From: Candidatus Hydrogenedentota bacterium | GTDB taxonomy: Bacteria > Hydrogenedentota > Hydrogenedentia > Hydrogenedentales > SLHB01 | Assembly: GCA_029552745.1 (NCBI GenBank) | Contig: JAKPDK010000152.1 | Location: 1-64,000, forward strand | Direction: 5' to 3' | Length of the DNA stretch: 64,000 nt | Part shown: positions 1,475 to 13,789 of the stretch, one piece after another | How positions within the stretch are numbered: position 1 is the first letter of the stretch | Layout: every line of letters starts with the position of its first letter | Notes under the pieces: model-generated | What the model saw: only the letters and a program-made list of their open reading frames with translations | Database searches by the model: none | Told to the model about the DNA's origin: nothing | Translations under genes and position numbers: made by a program

Positions 1475-3967
1475 TTATCTCAACACAGTGATAGGCGATT
1501 GAGTATCGGTGTGTTGGGATGCTTCTTCAATGATCTTTTTCCTGCTGGACAGTTCTTCTTGGGTCGCTTGACGTTTCTCGGCTTCTGCAAGGTAACCTCG
1601 TGCTGTGGTGAAGTCTTTCTCCGTCAATGCCACGTCGCAAAGTTTCAGCCACGGCAAGGCAGCGTCGGGATTTTTTTCGGATGCTTGTTTGAAATAGTCC
1701 TTTGCTCGGGCAGTCTGCGTGAGTTGTACAGCGATATCGCCCAGGGTGATCAAAGGTGAAGGAATCTCTGGAGCAGCTTGTGGGCTGCTTAAATAAGTCT
1801 CTGCCAGATCCCATTTCCCATTGGCGGCGCAGACTTGTGCCAATTGAATATATACCGAAGGTTTGTCGCCTTCCTGCTGTTGAGGCGCTGGCCATTCGTT
1901 CAAAAAGCCATCCGCGGCGCCCATGATCCCTTTTGCTAATCCGCCCATGATCCATGCGTTTACGTCATTAGGACGCTGTGCCAAATACATATCCATCAAA
2001 TACGCGACATGCAGGATCTTCTTCCGTGCCGCGTGAAGTTCTGCCTCACGCATCAGTACTTCTGGGTCGCGCGCACTTCGTCCCTGCTTGACCTGGGTCA
2101 ATTGCTGTTCCATCTTTTTCAAATATTCGACGGTTTGTCGCAGTTGATCAGCTTGCATTCTTATAACGTCGATGTTTTGAGAGGGTACACCTTGTTGTTC
2201 CATTTCGGCGATGGAGGCCGCCAGCAATGCATATGCCTTTTCAAATTCTCCGAACGCAACCAGTACACGGGCATAGTTCGAGCGGGCGAGCAAGGGCAGT
2301 GTCCCCAGCGATTCAGCATAGCGATAGTATTCTAAGGCATGCATCAGGTCAGCCTGGGAGTTCTCTTGAGTAGCTTTTTGTTGATATGCCGTTCCCAGCT
2401 GGAGGGCTGCCTCTTGGCGAGACAGGTCGAGCAGGAGGGCTTTGTAAAGCGTCTCGATAGCCTCGTCCGCTTTGCCTTGTCCTTCCAGGCTGTTACCCAA
2501 GAGTAAAAGCGTGTGTGCGTTTTGAGGTCTTAGATCGTCGGCATTCCTAAGGTATTTTTCCGCCTTGCCATACAATTCTTTAATTTGTTCCATATGAATA
2601 TTTCGGGTCGCAGCGTCTAAGCGGGACGCATTTTGGAGAAGCGAGGCCATTTTCGCGTTCGCTTGTTGAAGAATTAATGAACCGATCTGCTCTTGGACAT
2701 ACGCTGAATCTGGCGCTTTTTGTGCTGATTCCGTCCACATTCCCAAGGGGTCGTTCCATTGGGAAATTCGGGCAAAACTGCCAACTCCTGCGGCTACTAG
2801 TAAAAGGATGGCACCCAACGATGCGGCTTTCTGTACAATTCCTTTTTGCACCAATGGGAGAGTGAATAGCCAAGGAAGAACTAAGACAGCGCCTACAAGA
2901 GGTAAATACAGTTTTCTTTCGGTTAGTACCGAGGAAGATTCCCCGGTGATCATGAAAGAAAGCAGCGTAGCCAGAAAAAGAATCAACGCAAAGCCCAGGG
3001 CAGACCGCCGCTTCAGTAACACTAACGCTAAGAAAATGAAGATTCCAAATACGCCTGCTGCCGAGAGGAATGCAGGATTTGCGACATTTTCTGATGTTGG
3101 TTGAGGGTGGACAAGGCTTAAGCCTGTGCCTTGAATGGCTAGCGTAAGATAGTGGGGGAAAGCCAAGACCAGTTGAGAGACGGAAACGGTTGTTCCAGCC
3201 ACGCGAAAACCGTTGGTAGCAAAAAACACGGTCAAAGCCATGAGCGCCATGATCCAGTAGGGGGCCTGAAACCTATAGAATCTTTTTTCCCATGTTTCTG
3301 GGGCGTTCGTAACCCAGTCGGCTGCAAATACAAGGGCCGGAAACACTAGGAGAGCAGCACTCGCGCTCCAACTCAGTAAAAAGGAACACAAGGAAATCGA
3401 TAAGAAGACAATGGAGGGTTTTTCCTCATTCTGAGTAGCGCAAAGGTATCCGTAAAGAGCAAGAATACCAAAGAGGGTGGCGAGGAGATACTCCCGTGCT
3501 GGAAGATAGACGATGGTCTCTGACGTGACCGGATGCAAAGCAAATAGCAAACCTCCAGCCACAGCGACGGGCTCAGGGATACGATTGCCAAAAAGTTTGC
3601 GGCAAAACAGATAAACCATTATAGACGTTAGAATATGAAGGGCAAGGTTGAACGTTCGGAAACCACCGGTATCCGCACCAGCGATTGCCCGATTCAACCA
3701 AAAACTGAGCTTAACAATTTCGCCTTGATTTGTCTGAGAATCAGCGCTTTTGGGGTTCGCTATTTGCTGAATCAGGTTTTGTTCCTGTTCGTAGAGGGGG
3801 ACGGTGGAAACATTCAGGTGGGCAATAATTCCCGCGCCTGCAATAATGGCAATACCCAGTGAAAGCCAACCCAACTGACTGACGAATCTCTTACCAAGTG
3901 CTGCGAACGTTTCAGAGATTTGTTGATTCTTAGGTTCCGATAACTGCATTTCTGACACGGCATTCAT
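1475..3967 (-). CDS. Multi-spanning membrane protein with C-terminal TPR repeats (TMTC/PMT-like)
   Basis: The N-terminal half has about 10-11 hydrophobic segments and the loop motif LHPVTSETIVYLPAREY, resembling TMTC/PMT-type glycosyltransferase membrane domains. From about residue 400 the protein is a chain of tetratricopeptide repeats (for example LLLGNSLEGQGKADEAIETL and LLARSNYARVLVAFGEFEKA). Proteins of this layout sit in the inner membrane, and many are assumed to transfer sugars from lipid donors; that activity is inference here. The frame extends up to a TTG at 4018 without a visible ribosome site. I chose the ATG at 3967 (830 residues), although its GGAG lies unusually close. The gene is followed by the SGNH gene in convergent orientation. 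Confidence 0.7.
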   Translation of the reverse strand: MNAVSEMQLSEPKNQQISETFAALGKRFVSQLGWLSLGIAIIAGAGIIAHLNVSTVPLYEQEQNLIQQIANPKSADSQTNQGEIVKLSFWLNRAIAGADTGGFRTFNLALHILTSIMVYLFCRKLFGNRIPEPVAVAGGLLFALHPVTSETIVYLPAREYLLATLFGILALYGYLCATQNEEKPSIVFLSISLCSFLLSWSASAALLVFPALVFAADWVTNAPETWEKRFYRFQAPYWIMALMALTVFFATNGFRVAGTTVSVSQLVLAFPHYLTLAIQGTGLSLVHPQPTSENVANPAFLSAAGVFGIFIFLALVLLKRRSALGFALILFLATLLSFMITGESSSVLTERKLYLPLVGAVLVLPWLFTLPLVQKGIVQKAASLGAILLLVAAGVGSFARISQWNDPLGMWTESAQKAPDSAYVQEQIGSLILQQANAKMASLLQNASRLDAATRNIHMEQIKELYGKAEKYLRNADDLRPQNAHTLLLLGNSLEGQGKADEAIETLYKALLLDLSRQEAALQLGTAYQQKATQENSQADLMHALEYYRYAESLGTLPLLARSNYARVLVAFGEFEKAYALLAASIAEMEQQGVPSQNIDVIRMQADQLRQTVEYLKKMEQQLTQVKQGRSARDPEVLMREAELHAARKKILHVAYLMDMYLAQRPNDVNAWIMGGLAKGIMGAADGFLNEWPAPQQQEGDKPSVYIQLAQVCAANGKWDLAETYLSSPQAAPEIPSPLITLGDIAVQLTQTARAKDYFKQASEKNPDAALPWLKLCDVALTEKDFTTARGYLAEAEKRQATQEELSSRKKIIEEASQHTDTQSPITVLR

Positions 3968-4048
3968 GCTCCGCTTTTTTGAGATGGTAGGATACCAATT
4001 ACATGTGCCTCGCGGCAATATGATACGCGTTTGCGAGGTAAGACTTTA

Positions 4049-7000
4049 TCAAGTCTCAGCTGCTTTTTGCTCTGGGGTTGGCGAAGGACTTTTCGAAGTC
4101 AGCCGCTTATTCTGGATTGCGAGAGTTACTGAGGCATAGAGACTATACAATGTCGGAACGACGACTAGAGTCAACATTGTAGCGAAACTTAATCCAAAAA
4201 TCACCGCGATTGCCATAGGCCCCCACCATTGGCTGCTCTCACCGCCGACACTCCAAGTGAAATGACGAAAATCAAAACTCACACCGAGTGCCATGGGGAA
4301 CAAGCCGGTCACGGTGGTGATAGCAGTCAGTAATACGGGACGCAGTCGAATCGTGCCTGCCTGGACGATGGCTTCTTCGGTGGGCAAGCCTGTGGCGCGG
4401 AGTTCATTGATAAATTGCAAGAGTACAATCCCATTGTTTACAACTACGCCCGCCAAGCTGATGCACCCGATGCCACTCATGAGCACCCCGAAAGGCATTT
4501 GGCATATCAAATACCCCAGAAACACACCCACCAGAGAGAGAACTACCGTAGTCATAATAATGAGTGACTGAAACACAGAATTGAACTGTGCTACGAGAAC
4601 GAGGGTGACAAGAAGAACCGCAATAAGAAATGCCTTCATCAAGAATGCTTGAGTCTCTTCGTTTTCTTCGTTTTGGCCTGTGTAAGCGACTGTGTAACCC
4701 GAAGGCAAGTTCACTTCCTTTGATATGATCTGCTGGACATCGCGCAAGACTTCGGGCGGTCTTCTTTCGCCCTCCACTTCGGCAGAAACGGTCACAGTTC
4801 GTTTGCGATTGATCCGCTTGATGCTTCCTAAGCCTACTCCCTGTTCTACTTTTGCTACGGCAGAAAAAGGCACGGCTTTGCCCGCGAGATTGATCAATTG
4901 CATATTCTGTAGGTTACTAAGATCCTCTCGAAATTCGCGGGGAAATCTTACCGTCACATCGTATTCATTGTCACCTTCACGAAAATCTGCCGCTTTACGT
5001 CCGTTGATTGCTGCTTTGACTATTTCGCCGATAAGTCGAGTGCTCAAGCCCGTTTTCCAGGCTTGTACGCGATCGACGATGACTCGGACCTCTGGTTTTC
5101 CCCGATTGTAATCGTCCCGAAGATCGACAAGATTCGGCACGTTTTTGATTTTTTCACGTACCTCTTTTGCGAGACGAGCCAGAACGCCGTAATCATCACC
5201 ACTCAGCTCAATATTTATGGGCGGGCCCGACGGAGGTCCCATACCCATTTTTTCAACCTGTATTTCGGCGCCCACAATCTCTTGAAGTCTGGGGCGTACG
5301 GTTTCAAGAATCTTCGACGGCAATACTTTTGCCTCCGACAATTTTGGAAAGTCTAATGTGACGCGACTCAAGTGGCTTGTGGTTCCTCCGCCGTTCGCGC
5401 CCACATCCCCTCTGCCGCTTGCCTGCGAACCCACACTGGCAATCACATGCTCTATATTCTCGCGGTAGGGACGGAAGATGTCTTCGATCTGACGTACTAC
5501 ATTATCGGAAGTTTGCAGGTTTGTCCCTTCGGGGCATTTGACAATGATCTGGGCTTGAGGCGGTTCGATCTCGGGAAGGAATTCAGTTTTTCCGTAGATC
5601 CCGAAAATGCTCAAGACAACGAATAAGGTAGTGAACGCCAAAGTGATAGTTAGTGGGCGATGTCTAATAGCTTGCCGTAGAACTTTTTCGTATAGAGAGG
5701 TAAAAATGTGTTTCCTTTTTTTTCTTTCCGGGTGAACACGCAGGAACAGTGCGGCCAAACTGGGGTTGATGACCAGCCCGATGAAAAGGGACGTTGTAAG
5801 CGAAATGCATACGGTCATGGGCAGGTAGATCATGAATTCGCCCCAGATACCAGGCCAAAAGAACATGGGGATGAAAGCGGCAACAGTCGTTGCGGTAGAA
5901 CCGATGATGGGGAGAGCCACCTCGGCGGCTCCTGTTTTTGCCGCTTGCTCTGGGGGAAGGCCATTTTGGACGTTACGGTAAATGTTTTCTACGACAACGA
6001 TCCCATTGTCAACGAGCATACCAACCGCGAGGATCAGGCTAAATAAAGAAACCATGTTCAGCGTTACGCCGCTGAAATATAAAAAGATAAAAGTGATCAG
6101 CATAGATAGGGGTATTGCCAGCGATACCAGCAAGGCGTTCACAAACCCCATGGACAGGAAAATGACCATCAGGACAAGCACCATACCGCTCAGAATATTA
6201 TTTTCCAACTCAGAGACCATGTCGCGGATCCACACGGACTCATCCCACGTCAAACCGATCTCTACCCCTAGGGGAAGGCGACGGCGTATTTCATCCAATG
6301 TCCGATTTACTTGATCGGCAACTTGAATAATGTTAACCCCAGACCGTTTTGATAAGGTCAGCGTAATAGAAGGTTTGTCATTTACACGCGATAGGGTGCT
6401 GGTCTCTTTAAATCCATCCCGGACGATGGCAAGGTCTCGAAGATAAACGGTTCCTTTTTCACCGACTCGTACGACGAGGTTTTCCAGTTCTTCAGGAGTT
6501 TTGAATTCTCCCGGCGTTCTCATGAGGTATTTGCCTTCACCCAATTCCAAAGCGCCGCCAGGCGTATTCACGTTTTCTAAACTGACAACGCTGATAAGAT
6601 CTGAAAAAGAGACGCCATACGCAGCCACACGATCCGGATCCACTTCAATTTGGATCTCACGCTCTACACCTCCGATGATGGACACATCCAGTACCCCCGG
6701 GATGCTTTCCAATCGGTCTTCCATTTCTTCTGCGAGTTCATTTAGAACAGCCAATGGGTAATTCCCTGTCAAGCACATAACCATAATGGGGAATTCAGAA
6801 AAATTGACTTCGAAAACGGAAGGGTCGTCGGCATCAGCTGGCAAGTCTTGTTTAGCCTGATCCACTTTATCTCTGACTCGTTGTAAGGCGTCTTCAATTT
6901 CCACGTCAGGTTGAAATTCAATACTTACCGTTGACATGCCTTCTGTGCTGGTCGAAGTAATTTCTTTTACACCCGAAAGACCGGTAAGTTTACGTTCGAT

Positions 7001-7198
7001 GGGAACCGTCACTAGCGACTCCATATCCTCTGGAGAGACTCCTTCGTAACTTGTTGTGACGAAAATGTAAGGAATCACTACTTCCGGACTGGATTCTCGT
7101 GGCAACTCAATATAACTGTAAATGCCAACGATGAGAATAATAGTTGTCAAAACTAGGACGGTAGTGCTGCGATTTACCGCGAGATCAACTATTTTCAT
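4049..7198 (-). CDS. RND family efflux transporter permease (AcrB/HAE1-like)
   Basis: Inner-membrane proton-driven pump subunit of 1049 residues, the normal size for AcrB/MexB-type proteins. It has the duplicated RND layout: TM1 at residues 9-30, a large periplasmic loop, a TM block around 335-540, a second loop and a second TM block around 850-1020. The proton-relay helix reads AVGMLVDNGIVVVENI (about 395-410), so AcrB Asp407 is kept but Asp408 is Asn. The matching helix in the second half is GVVVNNGIVLLQF. Its ATG overlaps the end of the adaptor gene by 4 bases, so the two are translationally coupled. No TolC-type channel is in the window. The substrate is unknown. Confidence 0.93.
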   Translation of the reverse strand: MKIVDLAVNRSTTVLVLTTIILIVGIYSYIELPRESSPEVVIPYIFVTTSYEGVSPEDMESLVTVPIERKLTGLSGVKEITSTSTEGMSTVSIEFQPDVEIEDALQRVRDKVDQAKQDLPADADDPSVFEVNFSEFPIMVMCLTGNYPLAVLNELAEEMEDRLESIPGVLDVSIIGGVEREIQIEVDPDRVAAYGVSFSDLISVVSLENVNTPGGALELGEGKYLMRTPGEFKTPEELENLVVRVGEKGTVYLRDLAIVRDGFKETSTLSRVNDKPSITLTLSKRSGVNIIQVADQVNRTLDEIRRRLPLGVEIGLTWDESVWIRDMVSELENNILSGMVLVLMVIFLSMGFVNALLVSLAIPLSMLITFIFLYFSGVTLNMVSLFSLILAVGMLVDNGIVVVENIYRNVQNGLPPEQAAKTGAAEVALPIIGSTATTVAAFIPMFFWPGIWGEFMIYLPMTVCISLTTSLFIGLVINPSLAALFLRVHPERKKRKHIFTSLYEKVLRQAIRHRPLTITLAFTTLFVVLSIFGIYGKTEFLPEIEPPQAQIIVKCPEGTNLQTSDNVVRQIEDIFRPYRENIEHVIASVGSQASGRGDVGANGGGTTSHLSRVTLDFPKLSEAKVLPSKILETVRPRLQEIVGAEIQVEKMGMGPPSGPPINIELSGDDYGVLARLAKEVREKIKNVPNLVDLRDDYNRGKPEVRVIVDRVQAWKTGLSTRLIGEIVKAAINGRKAADFREGDNEYDVTVRFPREFREDLSNLQNMQLINLAGKAVPFSAVAKVEQGVGLGSIKRINRKRTVTVSAEVEGERRPPEVLRDVQQIISKEVNLPSGYTVAYTGQNEENEETQAFLMKAFLIAVLLVTLVLVAQFNSVFQSLIIMTTVVLSLVGVFLGYLICQMPFGVLMSGIGCISLAGVVVNNGIVLLQFINELRATGLPTEEAIVQAGTIRLRPVLLTAITTVTGLFPMALGVSFDFRHFTWSVGGESSQWWGPMAIAVIFGLSFATMLTLVVVPTLYSLYASVTLAIQNKRLTSKSPSPTPEQKAAET

Positions 7199-8268
7199 TG
7201 TGATGCCTCACGGACATTCACGGACTCACCATCGCGGACGTCAAATTGTCCTTTCACAATTAGCAGGTCGTTTTCGGAAAGCCCCGAAAGTACTTGGACA
7301 GTTCCTCCTTGCACAATACCTGTCGTTATGGGACGTATTTTGGCTTTGTTCTCTTCGACAACGGCGACAAACCGTTGTTCGTCGAGCAAGAAGGTGCTGA
7401 AAATAGGTACTAAGATCGAATCAGGATAGACTGCTCGTACAAGGTCTACGCGGGCAATCATACCGGGTTTCAGCTTTTGGTCGGGATTATCGACCTCAAT
7501 TTCTGTTAAAAAAGTGCGAGTTGATGCCTCAGCAGAAGTCGAAATGCGGTGAATGATGCCTTTGAAAGATTCTCCCGAAAAAGCATCGCATCGGACGTAG
7601 GCTTGACCGCCTACTTTAAAAGAGGAAATATCGCGTTCGGGTATACTGACCTCCACCTTGAGTTTATCCGTTTGAATAATCCTCGCCAGGGGAGTACCCA
7701 CTTCGACAAATTCATTTTCTTCGCGGAAACACTTGTCGATAATGCCTTCGAACGGAGCTTTCAGTACACTTTTCTCTAACTGAATCTGCACGGTTCTGAC
7801 TTCTGCTTCCGCAACATCTTTTGCGGCAAGGGCGTTGTCAAGGTCTCTTTCTGCACTAACACCTTTTGAAGTCAGACGTTGGGCGCGTTCATATTCTTGG
7901 TTAGCCAAACGAGCTTGGGCCTGGGCTTGCGCGAGACGGGCTTGCAGAGTCTGGGTATTGATGCGGAAAAGTTCCTGCCCTTGTTTTACCCGGTCACCTT
8001 CGTTTATGGGGCGTGCTTCAATTTTACCGCCCACCTCGGCGCTCAATGTGGCTGTTTTCCATGCCGCCACCGTTCCCGTAATTGTTAGCTTATCTTCCAA
8101 GGTCGAACTTTTTATGCGAAGGCATTCCACAGTGGGTACAGGTATTTCGGGGACCGTCTTAGCCTGCGAAGTTTTTCCAGAAACCAAATTGGCGACAAAA
8201 ATGATGCCAATTCCCACTGCAATAACACCAAGGCAAAGTACCAACTCAAAATATCGTCTTCTTTTCAT
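7195..8268 (-). CDS. RND efflux periplasmic adaptor subunit (membrane fusion protein)
   Basis: 357-residue adaptor that would bridge the RND pump to an outer-membrane channel. An N-terminal membrane anchor (about 8-28) is followed by a split lipoyl/biotinyl domain: GKIEARPINEGDRVKQGQ before the hairpin, and KAPFEGIIDKCFREENEFVE after it. Between them lies a short alpha hairpin of the form QARLAQAQAQARLANQEY. A beta-barrel and a membrane-proximal domain follow, ending with GLSENDLLIVKGQFDVRDGE. It starts 202 bases downstream of the preceding gene, so it may have its own promoter. It overlaps the pump gene by 4 bases. Confidence 0.92.
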   Translation of the reverse strand: MKRRRYFELVLCLGVIAVGIGIIFVANLVSGKTSQAKTVPEIPVPTVECLRIKSSTLEDKLTITGTVAAWKTATLSAEVGGKIEARPINEGDRVKQGQELFRINTQTLQARLAQAQAQARLANQEYERAQRLTSKGVSAERDLDNALAAKDVAEAEVRTVQIQLEKSVLKAPFEGIIDKCFREENEFVEVGTPLARIIQTDKLKVEVSIPERDISSFKVGGQAYVRCDAFSGESFKGIIHRISTSAEASTRTFLTEIEVDNPDQKLKPGMIARVDLVRAVYPDSILVPIFSTFLLDEQRFVAVVEENKAKIRPITTGIVQGGTVQVLSGLSENDLLIVKGQFDVRDGESVNVREASQ

Positions 8269-8469: not shown

Positions 8470-9843
8470 TCAGTAGCTTTTGCCGAGGAAACGGCAAGTC
8501 CATTCCTGGTTAGCGGCCCAACCCACTTTGGTGGATTCCCAAGCCGAGTAGAAAGACAGGGCGATTAGAAAGGACATGAAAATCCAGTGCCAACGTTTTC
8601 GGAACGACGCGAGTACCGGTGTCCCCATGAGGAGAAGAACAGGCATCGCGGGAATGTACCATCGAAACCCGTACGCTTCTCCACCATAATTATTCGTTTT
8701 GAAAAGGTAATACAGGGATAGAATGGCGAAAGCACCAAATCCAGAAAGAATATGAGACCGATACGGATAAGACTTTTTTCGAAGTGCTTGAAACGCGGAG
8801 ACTATTCCCATAAACAATACCGGATATAACGAGAATAAGCCATTTCGACCAAAGGTCATATTGAAGAAATAAACGGATTTAGGTTCGTTCAGGGCGTCCA
8901 CCTGAATCGGTTGTCGCCAATAAGAGGACTCATACCAGTACCACGCTTTATGGGACTGCGCGGGAAGAATGCTTCCCGTTACGGCGTATTCGATCCCAAA
9001 ATGCGTAATTAGAGGCAACAAGCTCCCCGCAAATACCCATAAGAGAGTCTGTTTGGGAAACTTAAGAAAAACAAAAAGTAGGGCAAACACCACAAATATC
9101 GTCGCTGGCATTTCTATGGTAAACACAAATGCCGAAGCCATGCCCAGCCCAAAGAAGCGCCAGGGGTGCGGCTGCAGTTTTCCCTCTGTCAATCCTAGGA
9201 CAAGATATAGGGCAATGATCAAGGCACATGTCCCGGGGACGTGATTATTGAACAACGTACTGTATCCCCACAACTGTGTACAGAATGCTACACAAAACAC
9301 GAGTATAGACGTTGTCAGGGGGTCGGCTCCCAACATGCGAAGGATACGGCTGAAAAAGAAGATAGTTAGTACATACGACAAGCCCACCAGCGAGATAGTC
9401 ATCCAAAGGAGAATCTTGTCGATGTCCTTTGACTCTTCAAGAGTCCATCCCAAAAGCGAACGCATAACGAGGTATTCGCCTGTCATAAAGAGAGGCAAGA
9501 TAGGAGGTTTACTTGAAATCAGGCGGCCATTTTTGACTGCCGGGCCGACACGCTCTCCTTTTACCATGACTTTATCAATAGTGCGCTGCTCGAAAAAATT
9601 CGGAGGTTCATTAAGAGGGGCATCGATGTAGAACGTACCTCTGTGTACCAGGCTATAGACGGTTGCCAGTCTGCTGTATGCGGGGTCAGCTCCGGACCGA
9701 TGATAAGCCCCTAAAACGCAAAACACAGTCGCTGTTGCGATCACGATGTAAACGAAAACACGTCCCATCATGCTCGATGGACGTTCCACCGGGGGTTTCA
9801 CCAGGTAAGCGGGGTAATCTGGGGGAGTAGTTGGTGCGTTCAA
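8470..9843 (-). CDS. Polytopic membrane protein, GT39/PMT-like
   Basis: 457 residues with about 10-11 transmembrane segments after a proline-rich cytoplasmic N terminus. The first long extracytoplasmic loop (about residues 50-115) contains SSKPPILPLFMTGEYL, like the KPP motif in the first loop of ArnT/PMT-type glycosyltransferases. The acidic DE pair typical of active GT39 enzymes is not obvious in that loop. Its start overlaps the end of the ABC ATPase gene by 4 bases, so it belongs to that operon. A role in envelope glycan or lipid modification is inference from fold alone. Confidence 0.6.
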   Translation of the reverse strand: MNAPTTPPDYPAYLVKPPVERPSSMMGRVFVYIVIATATVFCVLGAYHRSGADPAYSRLATVYSLVHRGTFYIDAPLNEPPNFFEQRTIDKVMVKGERVGPAVKNGRLISSKPPILPLFMTGEYLVMRSLLGWTLEESKDIDKILLWMTISLVGLSYVLTIFFFSRILRMLGADPLTTSILVFCVAFCTQLWGYSTLFNNHVPGTCALIIALYLVLGLTEGKLQPHPWRFFGLGMASAFVFTIEMPATIFVVFALLFVFLKFPKQTLLWVFAGSLLPLITHFGIEYAVTGSILPAQSHKAWYWYESSYWRQPIQVDALNEPKSVYFFNMTFGRNGLFSLYPVLFMGIVSAFQALRKKSYPYRSHILSGFGAFAILSLYYLFKTNNYGGEAYGFRWYIPAMPVLLLMGTPVLASFRKRWHWIFMSFLIALSFYSAWESTKVGWAANQEWTCRFLGKSY

Positions 9844-10601
9844 GCTTCTTCTTCGCCCTCGACCGTACCTACTTCGATGTCCAGCTCTTCGCGACGCTCA
9901 ATTTTGTCGACCAAGCCGTCGCGGATCCAAATGATACGATCGGATACATCCAGCATCTTAAGATCATGCGTGGCGCTGATAATTGTTACGCCCTTTTCTT
10001 TGTTCAGTTTGCGAAGTAATTCGATGATTTCTTTCCCCGTCTTGAGGTCCAGGTTTCCGGTGGGCTCGTCGGCAAGAATAATAGTCGGATCATTGGCAAG
10101 TGCCCGTGCACAAGCAACGCGTTGCTGTTGTCCCCCTGAAAGCTCCAATGGTTTGTGGCGAATGCGCTCGCCCAACCCGACTAACTGAAGCAACTCGGCA
10201 CCTTTATCCATCGCATCTTGTGTGGTCATTCCGGCAAATATCATCGGCAAAGTCACGTTTTCCAACGCGGTCATTACGGGTATGAGATTAAAGGTTTGGA
10301 AGATATAGCCGATCTTTCTGCAGCGGAGCCATGCCAACTCATAAGCATCTAGTCCGGAAATGTCCACCTCATCGATGTAGACTTTGCCTTGACTGGGCTT
10401 GTCCAATCCTCCAATCATGTTGAAAAGAGTGGACTTGCCGCTCCCCGAAGGTCCCATAATGGAAATGTATTCTCCGGTACGAATCTCGAGGTTGATACCT
10501 TTCAGAGCCCGAAGGGTCTCCTTGCCCATTACATATTCTTTAATGACATTGACCGTTTTCACCGCGTATTCCGTCGTTTGCGGTTCTGCAACTGTGTTCA
10601 T
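9840..10601 (-). CDS. ABC transporter ATP-binding protein, LolD/MacB type
   Basis: 253-residue ATPase of the MacB/LolD/FtsE group that powers FtsX-like permeases. Walker A is GPSGSGKSTLFNMIGG, the signature is LSGGQQQRVACARAL, Walker B is IILADEPTGNLD, and the H-loop is ISATHDL. The C terminus is acidic. An upstream ATG at 10610 touches a GGGAG. The ATG at 10601 has that same GGAG at a proper 9-base distance, so I use 10601. It follows the mini-permease gene by 42 bases and overlaps the next membrane protein gene by 4, which makes the permease at 10644 its natural partner. Confidence 0.93.
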   Translation of the reverse strand: MNTVAEPQTTEYAVKTVNVIKEYVMGKETLRALKGINLEIRTGEYISIMGPSGSGKSTLFNMIGGLDKPSQGKVYIDEVDISGLDAYELAWLRCRKIGYIFQTFNLIPVMTALENVTLPMIFAGMTTQDAMDKGAELLQLVGLGERIRHKPLELSGGQQQRVACARALANDPTIILADEPTGNLDLKTGKEIIELLRKLNKEKGVTIISATHDLKMLDVSDRIIWIRDGLVDKIERREELDIEVGTVEGEEEA

Positions 10602-10643
10602 CCGTAACATCTCCCTACCCGTTGGAAACGGACATCACCTAAA

Positions 10644-11282
10644 TCATATTTCTGTTCGCATAGCGTCCGCTGGGGGCATCTTACCTGCGCGTCGCGCCGG
10701 GTAGACCGCTCCCAAGACAGCGATCACCCCTCCGACGAGAATGGCGCCCAATATACCTGAGAAAATCTGCCCCCAAGGCAACAAAGCGAAGACAGTGCCT
10801 CCATGTTCCACAAACGATACAAAAATGGAGGCGAGTGCCCCCAAGATGGCGCCTAAAATGCTTCCTATTAGTCCTTGAAAAAGTGCTTCTATCAGAAATA
10901 ATTTTATTACGAACCAGTCTAAAGCACCTAGACATTTCATCGTACCTATTTCACGATATCTTTCGGTGACGCTCATCAGCATGGCGTTGGTGATCCCTAC
11001 GAAACAAACCAAAAGTGATATGCCAATTAACCAATACTGTCTCGTGTTGTCTTGCGCTGCAGTTACGGCAAGTTCCCCTTTTTCAAAAGGGATAGCAGCA
11101 TTTATGTATCCCGAAAGGATCACGTAGGTTAGAAAAGCAATAGTAAGTACAATCCCCGAAATCGTTATCATAGAACGCCAAAAACGAATCTTAATGCTTC
11201 GTAAGGCGATCTTTAGAGCTTCTCTGTTAGGGAGTTTGATTTGACGACGGATAGTAGAACGGGATTCTTGATTACGCGACAT
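10644..11282 (-). CDS. Miniature FtsX-family ABC permease
   Basis: 212 residues, about half the usual length of MacB/LolC/E-type permeases. TM1 (about 34-58) is followed by only about 25 residues before the three-helix FtsX core. The large periplasmic MacB-PCD domain is therefore missing. The core holds the family signature: TNAMLMSVTERYREIGTMKCLGA (about 99-121), in which an amphipathic coupling helix contacts the ATPase. The C terminus ends with VYPARRAGKMPPADAMRTE, the normal FtsX ending. The gene is intact, starts 2 bases after the PqqD-like gene, and precedes the cognate ATPase. Without a periplasmic domain it may be a minimal lipid or peptide extruder, or an ATPase-driven regulator like FtsEX. 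Confidence 0.8.
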   Translation of the reverse strand: MSRNQESRSTIRRQIKLPNREALKIALRSIKIRFWRSMITISGIVLTIAFLTYVILSGYINAAIPFEKGELAVTAAQDNTRQYWLIGISLLVCFVGITNAMLMSVTERYREIGTMKCLGALDWFVIKLFLIEALFQGLIGSILGAILGALASIFVSFVEHGGTVFALLPWGQIFSGILGAILVGGVIAVLGAVYPARRAGKMPPADAMRTEI

Positions 11283-11284
11283 TC

Positions 11285-11665
11285 TTAATCTTCCAAAGTC
11301 TTTTGCAATTCAAGCGCCACAATTTTGCGTTGCCCCAACATCGCTAGAAAACGAAACAGAGCACGTTCGATTTCCTCGTTGCACAGCCGCAGCTCTGCGG
11401 CTAAACCATCGATAATTTCTTGCACCGTGTGATTGCCGTCGATTTGCTGGGCAACACGAGCCCCCAGATCGTCCAGCATCACTTGTCTCAATTCAGAGCT
11501 TGGCACCATGAACTTCAGTAATCGTTCCCAAGAACTCACGCTTTTCCGATATGATACCAAACACCCCCCGGAATCAAGCTTCTGGACTTGGGCTTCCGAG
11601 ATGAAAAATGGTTTGGCGTTCAACAGTTCCTCTCGTGTGATGGTTTGGCGTTGCTTATTCCACAC
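11285..11665 (-). CDS. PqqD-like protein (RiPP-recognition-element fold)
   Basis: 126 residues. The C-terminal 75 match the PqqD pattern: LDDLGARVAQQIDGNHTVQEI, then IDGLAAEL, then EEIERALFRFLAMLGQRKIV. PqqD folds bind leader peptides of ribosomally made, modified peptides, but many stand-alone PqqD-like proteins have no known role. The N-terminal 45 residues are not recognisable. The start is GTG and lacks a clear ribosome site, so the exact start is uncertain. It is 2 bases upstream of the mini-permease, so the two are surely co-transcribed, and 85 bases downstream of a possible 54-residue peptide gene. Confidence 0.75.
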   Translation of the reverse strand: MWNKQRQTITREELLNAKPFFISEAQVQKLDSGGCLVSYRKSVSSWERLLKFMVPSSELRQVMLDDLGARVAQQIDGNHTVQEIIDGLAAELRLCNEEIERALFRFLAMLGQRKIVALELQKTLED

Positions 11666-11750
11666 TAGACGAACTCAGACTGCTTTCTGCCACTTTTCTC
11701 TACGAAGACTACACTAAATACATACCCAAAACAAATGTTGAAACTTTCCC

Positions 11751-11915
11751 TCAGCTCGACGTTTGGGTTTCTGCTTTGAAGCGGATCAATAGGATAAAGG
11801 CGTTAAAAAACGACGTGATCACTTCAATCAACCCTGTGATAGAAGGTACATTGGGGGTCGTGTCGGTAGCGCCAAGACTTGGTTTCTGGCACGTAACTCT
11901 TTTAATGTGTCGCAT
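11751..11915 (-). CDS. Possible small hydrophobic peptide (54 residues)
   Basis: ATG at 11915 to TGA at 11751-11753. The peptide begins MRHIKRVTCQKPSLGATD and has one hydrophobic stretch (LIEVITSFFNAFILLI, about 29-44) followed by a polar tail ending QTSS. An AGGAG lies about 13 bases upstream, farther than ideal. It falls between the lipoprotein gene and the PqqD-like gene on the same strand, 27 bases after the lipoprotein stop and in the same frame, so it could also be read-through sequence. It could be a small membrane protein or a peptide handled by the PqqD/ABC genes. It could also be chance: the evidence is only an open frame, composition and position. Confidence 0.3.
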   Translation of the reverse strand: MRHIKRVTCQKPSLGATDTTPNVPSITGLIEVITSFFNAFILLIRFKAETQTSS

Positions 11916-11942
11916 AGTCTTTTGATGACTCCTGTGAACGGA

Positions 11943-12569
11943 CTACTTTCCAAAGACCGTAGACCAAATCCTTCCAAGAACTCCTTGCTCCTTTTGTCCT
12001 TTCGCAAAGACTTCGGTTTTCTTTTCCTGCACCGGGGTCCATTGACCGCCCGCGAATTCTTCAGTCTTTTCTGACTCAAAACGGCTTCCGGAGTTGATCC
12101 ATCGCCCATTCTTAAATCGGTAATACAGCGTCTCCACGCCTGTCTGGCGCAGGAAGTGATTGTCGGCTTCAGCGTCTGCCCGTTTTCTTTTCATTTCTGT
12201 CACGAAAAGGACTTTGTTCACTCGCACAATGGCGGCATAAGGCTCTGTTAGTGAGTCCGTTTCCCTCATTTCGACGTCAAATTCTTTGTTTGGGTACACA
12301 GCCACTTCCTTGTAATAATATGGCCGCGAGTAGATAAGGCGGGCATTTTGAGGAGGCGTTTGTACGGAGACAGAATCAGCTGCTTGCAATTGTTTTTGGA
12401 CGGTGGCGCGTAATGCTTGCTCCATATCACTCCCAGGGGTGACGAATTCTCCTTGAGGGGGTCTGCGACTATCGGAGGGCTGTCTTCCCCGAAATAGGGT
12501 ACAACTTGGCAAAACCGTTAAGACAAGAATCGAAATGGCGCACCAAACAGCAGTTAACGTTTTTTTCAT
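11943..12569 (-). CDS. Putative lipoprotein of unknown function
   Basis: 208 residues from the ATG at 12569, which is preceded by AAGGGG. The N terminus is a lipoprotein signal: MKK, a hydrophobic core, then the lipobox LPSC, so the mature protein would carry lipid on Cys23. The frame extends upstream, but those residues do not look like a signal peptide. The mature part is polar, with YYYKEVAVYPNKEFDVEMRE and ETLYYRFKNGRWI, suggesting beta structure. I do not recognise a family. It lies between the zinc-ribbon membrane protein and the PqqD/ABC cluster, all on one strand. Confidence 0.65.
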   Translation of the reverse strand: MKKTLTAVWCAISILVLTVLPSCTLFRGRQPSDSRRPPQGEFVTPGSDMEQALRATVQKQLQAADSVSVQTPPQNARLIYSRPYYYKEVAVYPNKEFDVEMRETDSLTEPYAAIVRVNKVLFVTEMKRKRADAEADNHFLRQTGVETLYYRFKNGRWINSGSRFESEKTEEFAGGQWTPVQEKKTEVFAKGQKEQGVLGRIWSTVFGK

Positions 12570-12688
12570 GTTTGCAATCGCCCCTTTTTCCTTAAGCATG
12601 AAAGATGCGATGTCGTCACATTTTACGACATTCCCCGTCATTTACCAAATTGGCCGATCGGCAACCCTATAAAAATGGTTTCATACTC

Positions 12689-13789
12689 TCAGAATCGAGT
12701 GATACCCGTTGCCTTATTGCAACGCAGTTTCCGATTGTACAAGGTATCGATCAAACAAACCTCATCACGCTTCACCAGAGTCAGTTGAAACCGGTTCTCG
12801 CAAAAAAAATCGCCTTCCTTAACGGTGACATGAATCTCTTTGGTGTCAGGCCCTACAAGCGAAAACTCAGCGACCGGTGGTTTTGACTCCACATCTGTAT
12901 TTAATAACATTGCCCCGTACAAGCGTACTTCAGCTGATACCTTATTCTTGAGTTCAAGCAAGTCTTCTGAAGGACAGTAATTATATGCTTTCGATGCCTT
13001 TTCCCAAGCTTTCGATAGGTTGTTTTGGTCAAAAGGATTCTGGGCAAGTAATTCTTCGATATGTCTTTTTACCTTGTTCTTTATGTCCTCTAGCGTTGCC
13101 CTGCTTTCAGGGTTGTCGTATTTTCGCTGGTGCTTGACAGCAACATCTAGCACTTCGACCAAATCTTCCCCCGATTCGAGAAGGGAAATTGCGGGGTTCG
13201 GTGGCATAAACTGGTTTTCGTTTTGGGATGAGATCATTGCCCGGATTTTTGGGGCGCTTTTAATTCCGGCAAAGGCAATAACCGCTATAACTATCGCCGA
13301 GAAGATAAAAATAGCAGCCGACCTGTACCAGTCAGGAAGCCCGCCATCTCGAAGTTTCCGTTTATATGGGGAATAGCTTTTTACTGGAGGCGGCGCGACA
13401 CTCGCTGCCAACGAACGACTATATGCATCCAAGGGTGGAAGCTTCGTCTCCGGAATCTCGGATGTATCTTCTTTTTCCTCAGAAATGCGATGACGTCCGA
13501 AAATGCTTGGTTTCTTTTTGGCTTCGACTGCGGCTCTGGATTTTCGGAAGGATTCCTCAGAACGGAATGCTTCAAGCGCTTCCATAACGCTATTGGAAGG
13601 CGCATAATGCTCTATTGTTTCGCCCCCCAAATCTTCGATCGTAAGAGTCCGCTGTTCTTCCCGTGGACGTCCTACCTCTTCACCGCAGAACCGGCATTTC
13701 GTAGCAAGGACGCTGATCTCCATCCGACACGTCGGACACAGACGTGTCTTATCTTGCGGCCGTCCTTCCGTAGAATCGTGCGAAGGCAC
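12689..13789 (-). CDS. Zinc-ribbon single-span membrane protein of unknown function
   Basis: 366 residues starting at GTG, with AAGGA 9 bases upstream. Residues 18-40 form a double CxxC zinc ribbon (CPTCRMEISVLATKCRFCGE). A disordered charged stretch follows, then one membrane helix (about 160-182, AAIFIFSAIVIAVIAFAGI) and a C-terminal domain of about 180 residues with a helical part (VKHQRKYDNPESRATLEDIK) and a final beta-rich part. The layout, with a cytoplasmic zinc ribbon and an external domain, is common for uncharacterised envelope proteins. Nothing points to a definite function. It may be the first gene of the run that leads to the PqqD/ABC genes. Confidence 0.6.
   Translation of the reverse strand: MPSHDSTEGRPQDKTRLCPTCRMEISVLATKCRFCGEEVGRPREEQRTLTIEDLGGETIEHYAPSNSVMEALEAFRSEESFRKSRAAVEAKKKPSIFGRHRISEEKEDTSEIPETKLPPLDAYSRSLAASVAPPPVKSYSPYKRKLRDGGLPDWYRSAAIFIFSAIVIAVIAFAGIKSAPKIRAMISSQNENQFMPPNPAISLLESGEDLVEVLDVAVKHQRKYDNPESRATLEDIKNKVKRHIEELLAQNPFDQNNLSKAWEKASKAYNYCPSEDLLELKNKVSAEVRLYGAMLLNTDVESKPPVAEFSLVGPDTKEIHVTVKEGDFFCENRFQLTLVKRDEVCLIDTLYNRKLRCNKATGITRF

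Follow-up and report, generated by a model that had tools for sequence, protein, structure and literature searches.

Does a PqqD-like protein encoded directly beside an FtsX-type permease that lacks its periplasmic domain, with a LolD-type ATPase and a 54-codon open reading frame (ORF) as neighbours, mark a minimal exporter for a modified peptide, as a first-pass annotation had suggested, or is this trio part of something larger? The locus lies in a 64,000-nucleotide stretch (the window) on contig C23 of a Candidatus Hydrogenedentota genome (4.36 Mb, 99.7% complete). Comparing gene order and gene content across genomes, we conclude with moderate confidence that the PqqD-like protein, the half-permease (mini-FtsX) and the LolD-type ATPase belong, as three of six components, to a conserved machine of the cell envelope in the type VII ABC class (MacB/LolCDE/FtsEX). 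With comparable confidence, and judging from sequence, we read the window as carrying one half of a split system. The features concerned are as follows.

4049-7198, minus strand: RND pump; MFP-RND order identical in L013 and L015; synteny in Hydrogenedentota only
7195-8268, minus strand: MFP (periplasmic adaptor), forming a pair with the RND pump; synteny in Hydrogenedentota only
8470-9843, minus strand: polytopic membrane protein, 457 aa; synteny in Hydrogenedentota only
9840-10610, minus strand: LolD/MacB-type ABC ATPase, 256 aa (ABC_tran); adjoins mini-FtsX in nearly all relatives
10644-11282, minus strand: mini-FtsX half-permease, 212 aa, four transmembrane (TM) helices (FtsX PF02687, TM sketch, alignment)
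11285-11665, minus strand: PqqD-like protein, 126 aa, GTG start (Pfam PF05402, AF2, Foldseek, 29-sequence alignment)
11666-11942, minus strand: interval between the lipoprotein and PqqD-like genes; position of PSB, a tandem PsbP/Mog1-fold protein, in close relatives; PSB absent here
11751-11915, minus strand: 54-codon ORF with one hydrophobic segment (ORF list, codon usage, positional relatives)
11943-12641, minus strand: lipoprotein, lipobox LPSC read from the sequence; synteny in Hydrogenedentota only
12689-13789, minus strand: zinc-ribbon protein with a single TM segment; synteny in Hydrogenedentota only

The features named in the annotation were all found at their positions on the minus strand, with the PqqD-like gene 2 bp from mini-FtsX and the ATPase gene next, after a gap of 33 bp. 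The ATPase gene overlaps that of the 457-aa protein by 4 bp, and from this spacing the genes probably form a single operon. The lipoprotein, whose true start is probably an internal MKKTL, had been tentatively grouped with the zinc-ribbon protein and the RND pair in the same envelope unit. This grouping did not hold up: the synteny is confined to Hydrogenedentota, where for the lipoprotein and zinc-ribbon genes it extends to a relative without PqqD (G008), and none of these genes was found around the module in the loci fetched from other phyla. Adjoining the RND gene, positions 1475-4018 of the window encode an 847-aa multi-TM protein with TPR-like repeats, a relative of which stands beside the block in L011.

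Mini-FtsX matches the FtsX domain over residues 85-204 (PF02687, 81 bits) and the ATPase matches ABC_tran (117 bits), so that the type VII ABC signature of an FtsX C-terminal permease domain with a LolD/MacB-type ATPase is present. The LolCDE equivalog cut-offs were missed by both proteins: the best NCBIfam model of the ATPase is LolD (231 bits, under the 308-bit cut-off), and mini-FtsX scores 48.7 bits against a LolC/E cut-off of 362. The permease was correctly described as lacking a periplasmic domain, only about 20-25 residues lying between TM1 and TM2; the large TM1-TM2 domain typical of type VII systems is found not here but in a second permease of about 1500 aa, the giant. Variant arrangements were also seen, including one at L051 (G012:C447), where a 350-aa FtsX whose extracytoplasmic domain is of moderate size is followed in order by LolD, PqqD-like and a second LolD, and two neighbouring LolD genes behind the permease at L016 and L166, where a heterodimeric ATPase is possible. 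An apparent mini-FtsX-LolD fusion at L088 was rejected as a probable overlapping frame, with the permease match and the 487-codon frame in different reading frames.

Genome contigs were scanned with the permease alignment and the best 80 loci taken, spanning Hydrogenedentota, Latescibacterota, Poribacteria, Omnitrophota, Armatimonadota, Lentisphaerota, Planctomycetota, Desulfobulbaceae and others; some phylum labels are those of the MAGs as deposited (‘Nitrospiraceae’ L059, for example, groups with Hydrogenedentota). A PqqD-like gene, recognized with the PqqD profile, directly precedes mini-FtsX in 28 of these best 80 loci, an association of the trio far beyond chance, and the link between PqqD-like protein, permease and ATPase noted in the window thus recurs across phyla. 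Directly upstream of PqqD in 26 of the 28 is PSB, which was at no locus of this set present when PqqD was missing. An arrangement of six genes, in the order giant, OPT-like protein, PSB, PqqD, mini-FtsX and LolD, was found in Omnitrophota (L062), Latescibacterota (L082 and its relatives L078 and L095), a Bacillota-labelled locus (L089), Armatimonadota (L090) and Lentisphaerota (L125); some of these loci are truncated at a contig end, and L065 has the same order minus PSB.

Elsewhere the parts are separated or rearranged. In Hydrogenedentota, DUF6785, giant and OPT-like genes stand apart from PSB, PqqD, mini-FtsX and LolD; in Poribacteria L161, giant, OPT-like, PSB and PqqD genes are followed by a LolD homologue, and mini-FtsX-LolD is encoded at a separate place; in the Phycisphaerae loci L088 and L166, DUF6785, giant, OPT-like, PSB and PqqD genes lie ahead of a mini-FtsX match and LolD genes; and in Desulfobulbaceae L162 about 17 kb contains all parts, arranged differently. 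G008 is without PSB and PqqD and keeps mini-FtsX and LolD. That the set breaks at different points and its parts still co-occur is our main argument for a single functional system. In two further Desulfobulbaceae loci (L101 and L115), mini-FtsX, LolD, giant, DUF6785 and OPT-like genes lie behind glycosyltransferase-28-like and DUF2334 genes, and a glycan link of this block is possible.

Co-occurrence was evaluated in 60 genomes of the order, the source genome included, using hypergeometric p values that ignore relatedness. Full-length mini-FtsX was present in 15 genomes, and the giant and the OPT-like protein in 12 each, both nested within the 15 (p = 3e-10 each, relatedness ignored) and found together in 11. 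A search with the window's PqqD-like protein found a relative in eight of the 60 genomes, the source genome included; the PqqD subfamily (E below 1e-15) was present in nine, all within the 15 mini-FtsX genomes (p = 3e-7, relatedness ignored), and the six genomes with PSB were all among these nine. Mini-FtsX genomes without the giant (G011, G013 and G040) are 80-83% complete. A second set comprised 20 genomes picked for their mini-FtsX loci; most were from other phyla, and chromosome-level assemblies of Poribacteria and Latescibacteria were among them. This set contained the OPT-like protein in 19 genomes, the giant in 19 and PqqD in 18. The sole genome there without giant and OPT-like protein, G078, has the same contig and coordinates as G013, which is 80% complete.

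Whole-genome searches usually placed PqqD elsewhere in the same genome when it did not adjoin mini-FtsX, and we rejected such loci as instances of loss. The core does occur without PqqD and PSB in G008, G030, G032, G058 and G059, and without PqqD in G070 and G071; the source genome itself also lacks PSB. Some lineages thus do without the cytosolic pair. G064-G067 and G074 hold several giant or OPT-like copies, so that a strict one-to-one pairing of partners does not apply.

In the source genome, the half of the system that the window does not carry is probably an operon for DUF6785/6784, the giant and the OPT-like protein (657, 1524 and 692 aa, respectively) at C23:279132-287806 (L133:3133-11807), about 270 kb from the trio on the same contig. 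Pfam domains of the giant are Peptidase_M28 and PA-like domains in the N-terminal part and MacB_PCD and FtsX in the C-terminal part, with MacB_PCD above its cut-off in L101 and weak in three others. Where the active M28 enzymes compared (2ek8, YwaD) have SHHDS/AHYDS, GAnD[DN], EE and HTPND, the giants have AYYDS/AFYDS, GAEQ/GAEN/GADE, HF/HA and GTPND: the histidine of HxD is changed to Y or F, the D before N to Q, N or E, EE to HF or HA and the C-terminal histidine to other residues. With zinc ligands and catalytic glutamate replaced, the M28 domain is predicted to be catalytically dead, which suggests ligand capture, not cleavage.

The permease half of every giant tested (L133:5158-9729, L082:3-4517, L101:9435-14237, L125:2-4492 and L134:2485-7419) matched the PADLOC model CARF_m8--CARF_LolE_TM (PDLC01991) at E ~1e-46 to 1e-56, so this half has been classified before in another context; the likeness is in the permease half, whereas the giant carries a pseudo-M28 domain, not a demonstrated CARF. 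The giant of Poribacteria L161 (7426-14904) is longer (about 2490 aa); it matches LysM marginally, at 21.2 bits for a cut-off of 20.9, a hint that it may touch peptidoglycan.

The OPT-like protein (660-690 aa) may be a distant OPT relative, although the signal is weak. The OPT profile (PF03169) matches its C terminus in four genomes (E 3e-5 to 8e-4); in the source genome the protein stays below the cut-off of 25.8 bits, at 24.5, and among ten members aligned a single one reaches E 2e-7. Profile-profile comparison with three OPT sequences was weak and not convincing, comparison with DUF6785 was suggestive only, and a PDB sequence search gave nothing useful. The protein resembles OPT transporters and DUF6785/6784 in being polytopic, at about 660 aa, and the OPT profile matches its C-terminal part; it differs from OPT transporters in lying around or below the curated cut-off and in its linkage to an ABC system.

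Type VII ABC systems act through mechanotransmission; typically no substrate moves through the membrane, and their partners set the function (PMC12646458). The system described here shares with MacAB-TolC, LolCDE, FtsEX and YbbAP-TesA (PMC12646458) a LolD-type ATPase, the FtsX fold, function-defining partners and a MacB-like periplasmic core, here located in the giant. It differs from them in a proposed permease pair that is grossly unequal (212 versus ~1500 aa), in the pseudo-M28 domain, in the linked OPT-like and DUF6785 membrane proteins and in two cytosolic proteins, one with the RiPP-recognition element (RRE) fold and one with a tandem PsbP fold. On the simplest reading, which we consider rather probable, a LolD dimer would power a heterodimer of mini-FtsX, as the bare half, with the giant, as the half that has periplasmic parts, because a four-helix mini-FtsX lacking a periplasmic domain would find little to pass force on to and the giant, with which it co-occurs, has a MacB-like core and a receptor-like domain. 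The annotation's minimal exporter is not supported as a stand-alone unit: mini-FtsX co-occurs with the giant, its likely partner. The dead M28 domain would then serve as a receptor, not an enzyme, and the OPT-like protein could provide membrane passage or act as a partner. The likely job of such a machine would be ATP-driven handling, by mechanotransmission, of a peptide, lipopeptide or envelope-protein substrate, with peptides, lipopeptides and proteins with a hydrophobic segment as candidates; since type VII systems normally pass no substrate across the membrane, calling it a transporter is uncertain.

Lol-like release, in which mini-FtsX and LolD, perhaps with the giant, extract the neighbouring lipoprotein or a class of lipoproteins while PqqD and PSB act as regulators, would fit the nearest model of the ATPase, the MacB/LolC-like core of the giant and the lipoprotein gene that adjoins the module in Hydrogenedentota. 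We nevertheless consider it unlikely: the permease falls far short of the LolC/E cut-off, in other phyla the lipoprotein gene does not accompany the module, no neighbour resembling LolA turned up, and the OPT-like and DUF6785 partners fit poorly.

The PqqD-like protein scores 31.3 bits with PF05402 (cut-off 23.4) and 27.3 bits with the PQQ-biosynthesis PqqD model TIGR03859, under the equivalog cut-off of 46. Its AF2 model (mean pLDDT 81, 29-sequence alignment) has the complete b-b-b-a-a-a RRE topology, together with an N-terminal helix and strand (18-21) and a short helix (45-50) inserted between strands 2 and 3; the N-terminal motif is conserved, with R11 and P19 invariant in the 29-sequence alignment. 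The top Foldseek matches are TbiB1-leader peptide complexes (TMt 0.82), with PqqD also found, and sequence-profile matches include the lasso PqqD 9x90, 3g2b, 5v1u and 5sxy. On this model the protein has a true RRE fold, and the PqqD-type peptide-binding fold claimed for it is upheld, with RREs holding bound leader peptides as the nearest solved structures. Known PqqD and RRE proteins (PF05402; TbiB1 5v1u/5v1v, PqqD 3g2b/5sxy; PMC12710340) share the complete fold and the small stand-alone form, whereas the protein here has an extra N-terminal motif, an inserted helix and fixed ABC permease and PSB partners, and is without RiPP enzymes or a conserved precursor: no radical-SAM, cyclase or protease gene was found near the window locus or the relatives' loci examined.

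PSB (about 310 aa) lies between the lipoprotein and PqqD genes, near PqqD, in Hydrogenedentota relatives with a readable upstream region. Single-sequence and profile searches did not find it in the source genome, nor was a pseudogene remnant found in the lipoprotein-PqqD gap of the window. An AF2 model of the L053 sequence (pLDDT 89) resembles PsbP (E 3e-5) as well as Mog1 and SciW/EagT6 (prob ~1), and the motif of this fold occurs twice in the sequence, so we read PSB as two PsbP/Mog1-type domains; as it has no hydrophobic signal segment, it is probably cytosolic. A PDB sequence search gave nothing useful and no detectable relation to a solved member. Eag chaperones bind transmembrane helices of effectors before export (PMC7773334). 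Both PSB domains would share the PsbP/Mog1/DUF1795 fold of the Eag chaperones SciW and EagT6 (PMC7773334), but PSB is a tandem single chain, with no sequence relation detected and no type VI link seen; by analogy, it may bind transmembrane helices as they do. In many PSB sequences the first half contains a CxxC-like motif and WHC/CH stands close to the C terminus, a possible metal site that is lost in others.

Tentatively, PSB and the PqqD-like protein would form a cytosolic adaptor pair. The pair would recognize a segment, peptide-like or hydrophobic, in either a substrate or a subunit and would link this segment to the ATPase. Bolder, and more doubtful, is the proposal that the RRE protein and the tandem PsbP/Eag-fold chaperone are the cytosolic recognition arm of a six-part ABC/OPT hybrid with a pseudo-peptidase receptor; such a hybrid would be a new kind of system that uses ATP to handle peptides or membrane proteins in many, mostly uncultured, phyla. 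We give a small chance to the PqqD-like protein being instead a winged-helix regulator or ATPase-binding subunit that binds no peptide, with the core complex functional alone. The RRE fold is related to winged-helix folds that bind DNA (PMC7470986), the core is present in several genomes that lack PqqD, and the conserved N-terminal motif might fill the protein's own cleft, the model having a strand at 18-21; yet the best structural matches are peptide-bound RREs, and the tight pairing with PSB and the place of the gene between those of PSB and the permease point to a subunit or adaptor more than to a DNA-binding protein.

A literature search that covered few subscription papers returned no paper joining PqqD, FtsX and an ABC transporter, none joining an FtsX-like permease with M28 and none on DUF6785, and the six-part system is apparently undescribed. 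It brings into one testable system families that have been studied separately, namely RRE, PsbP/Eag-fold chaperone, bare FtsX, pseudo-M28/MacB-type permease, OPT-like and DUF6785/6784 proteins. If the six-part reading is true, RRE domains have a role in membrane machinery beyond the making of RiPPs, the two permeases of a type VII ABC heterodimer can differ greatly in size, and a shared context emerges for DUF6785/6784 and several ‘hypothetical’ genes of uncultured phyla.

The 54-codon ORF does lie upstream on the same strand with one hydrophobic segment (residues ~26-44), as first described, and its codon usage is coding-like: the score of 0.058 per codon exceeds those of ~98% of the 192 window ORFs of 45-70 codons, and from this place in the top 2% it is probably coding. 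Comparison with relatives, which the annotation had proposed as a check, cut both ways. Similar ORFs occupy the same position in L053 (49 codons, p~4e-4) and L054 (57 codons, p~1.4e-3; block shuffles of ORFs preselected by position); these two are strongly alike, and all three start M-x-H-[IV]-[RK]-x-[IV]-[TS] and have one hydrophobic segment each. The ORF is absent from the Hydrogenedentota loci L055, L056, L057 and L059 (L058 is truncated by a contig end) and was not found in any PqqD locus of other phyla. Kept in three Hydrogenedentota loci and missing in four of seven as well as in all other phyla, it was rejected as a general or conserved substrate.

The peptide-handling reading of the annotation is thus supported in part, by the RRE fold and the linkage of PqqD to permease and ATPase, and fails on the small-ORF substrate, the RiPP enzymes and the minimal exporter. 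A RiPP-type system, in which the PqqD-like protein binds a leader peptide, that of the 54-codon product or of some other precursor, and passes the precursor to a minimal mini-FtsX/LolD exporter, is highly improbable despite the RRE fold and a coding-like ORF with two positional relatives, since PqqD is kept in most loci while the ORF is not, modifying enzymes are missing nearby and the giant co-occurs with the permease. By its sequence, the 54-codon ORF probably encodes a real, small, lineage-specific membrane protein.
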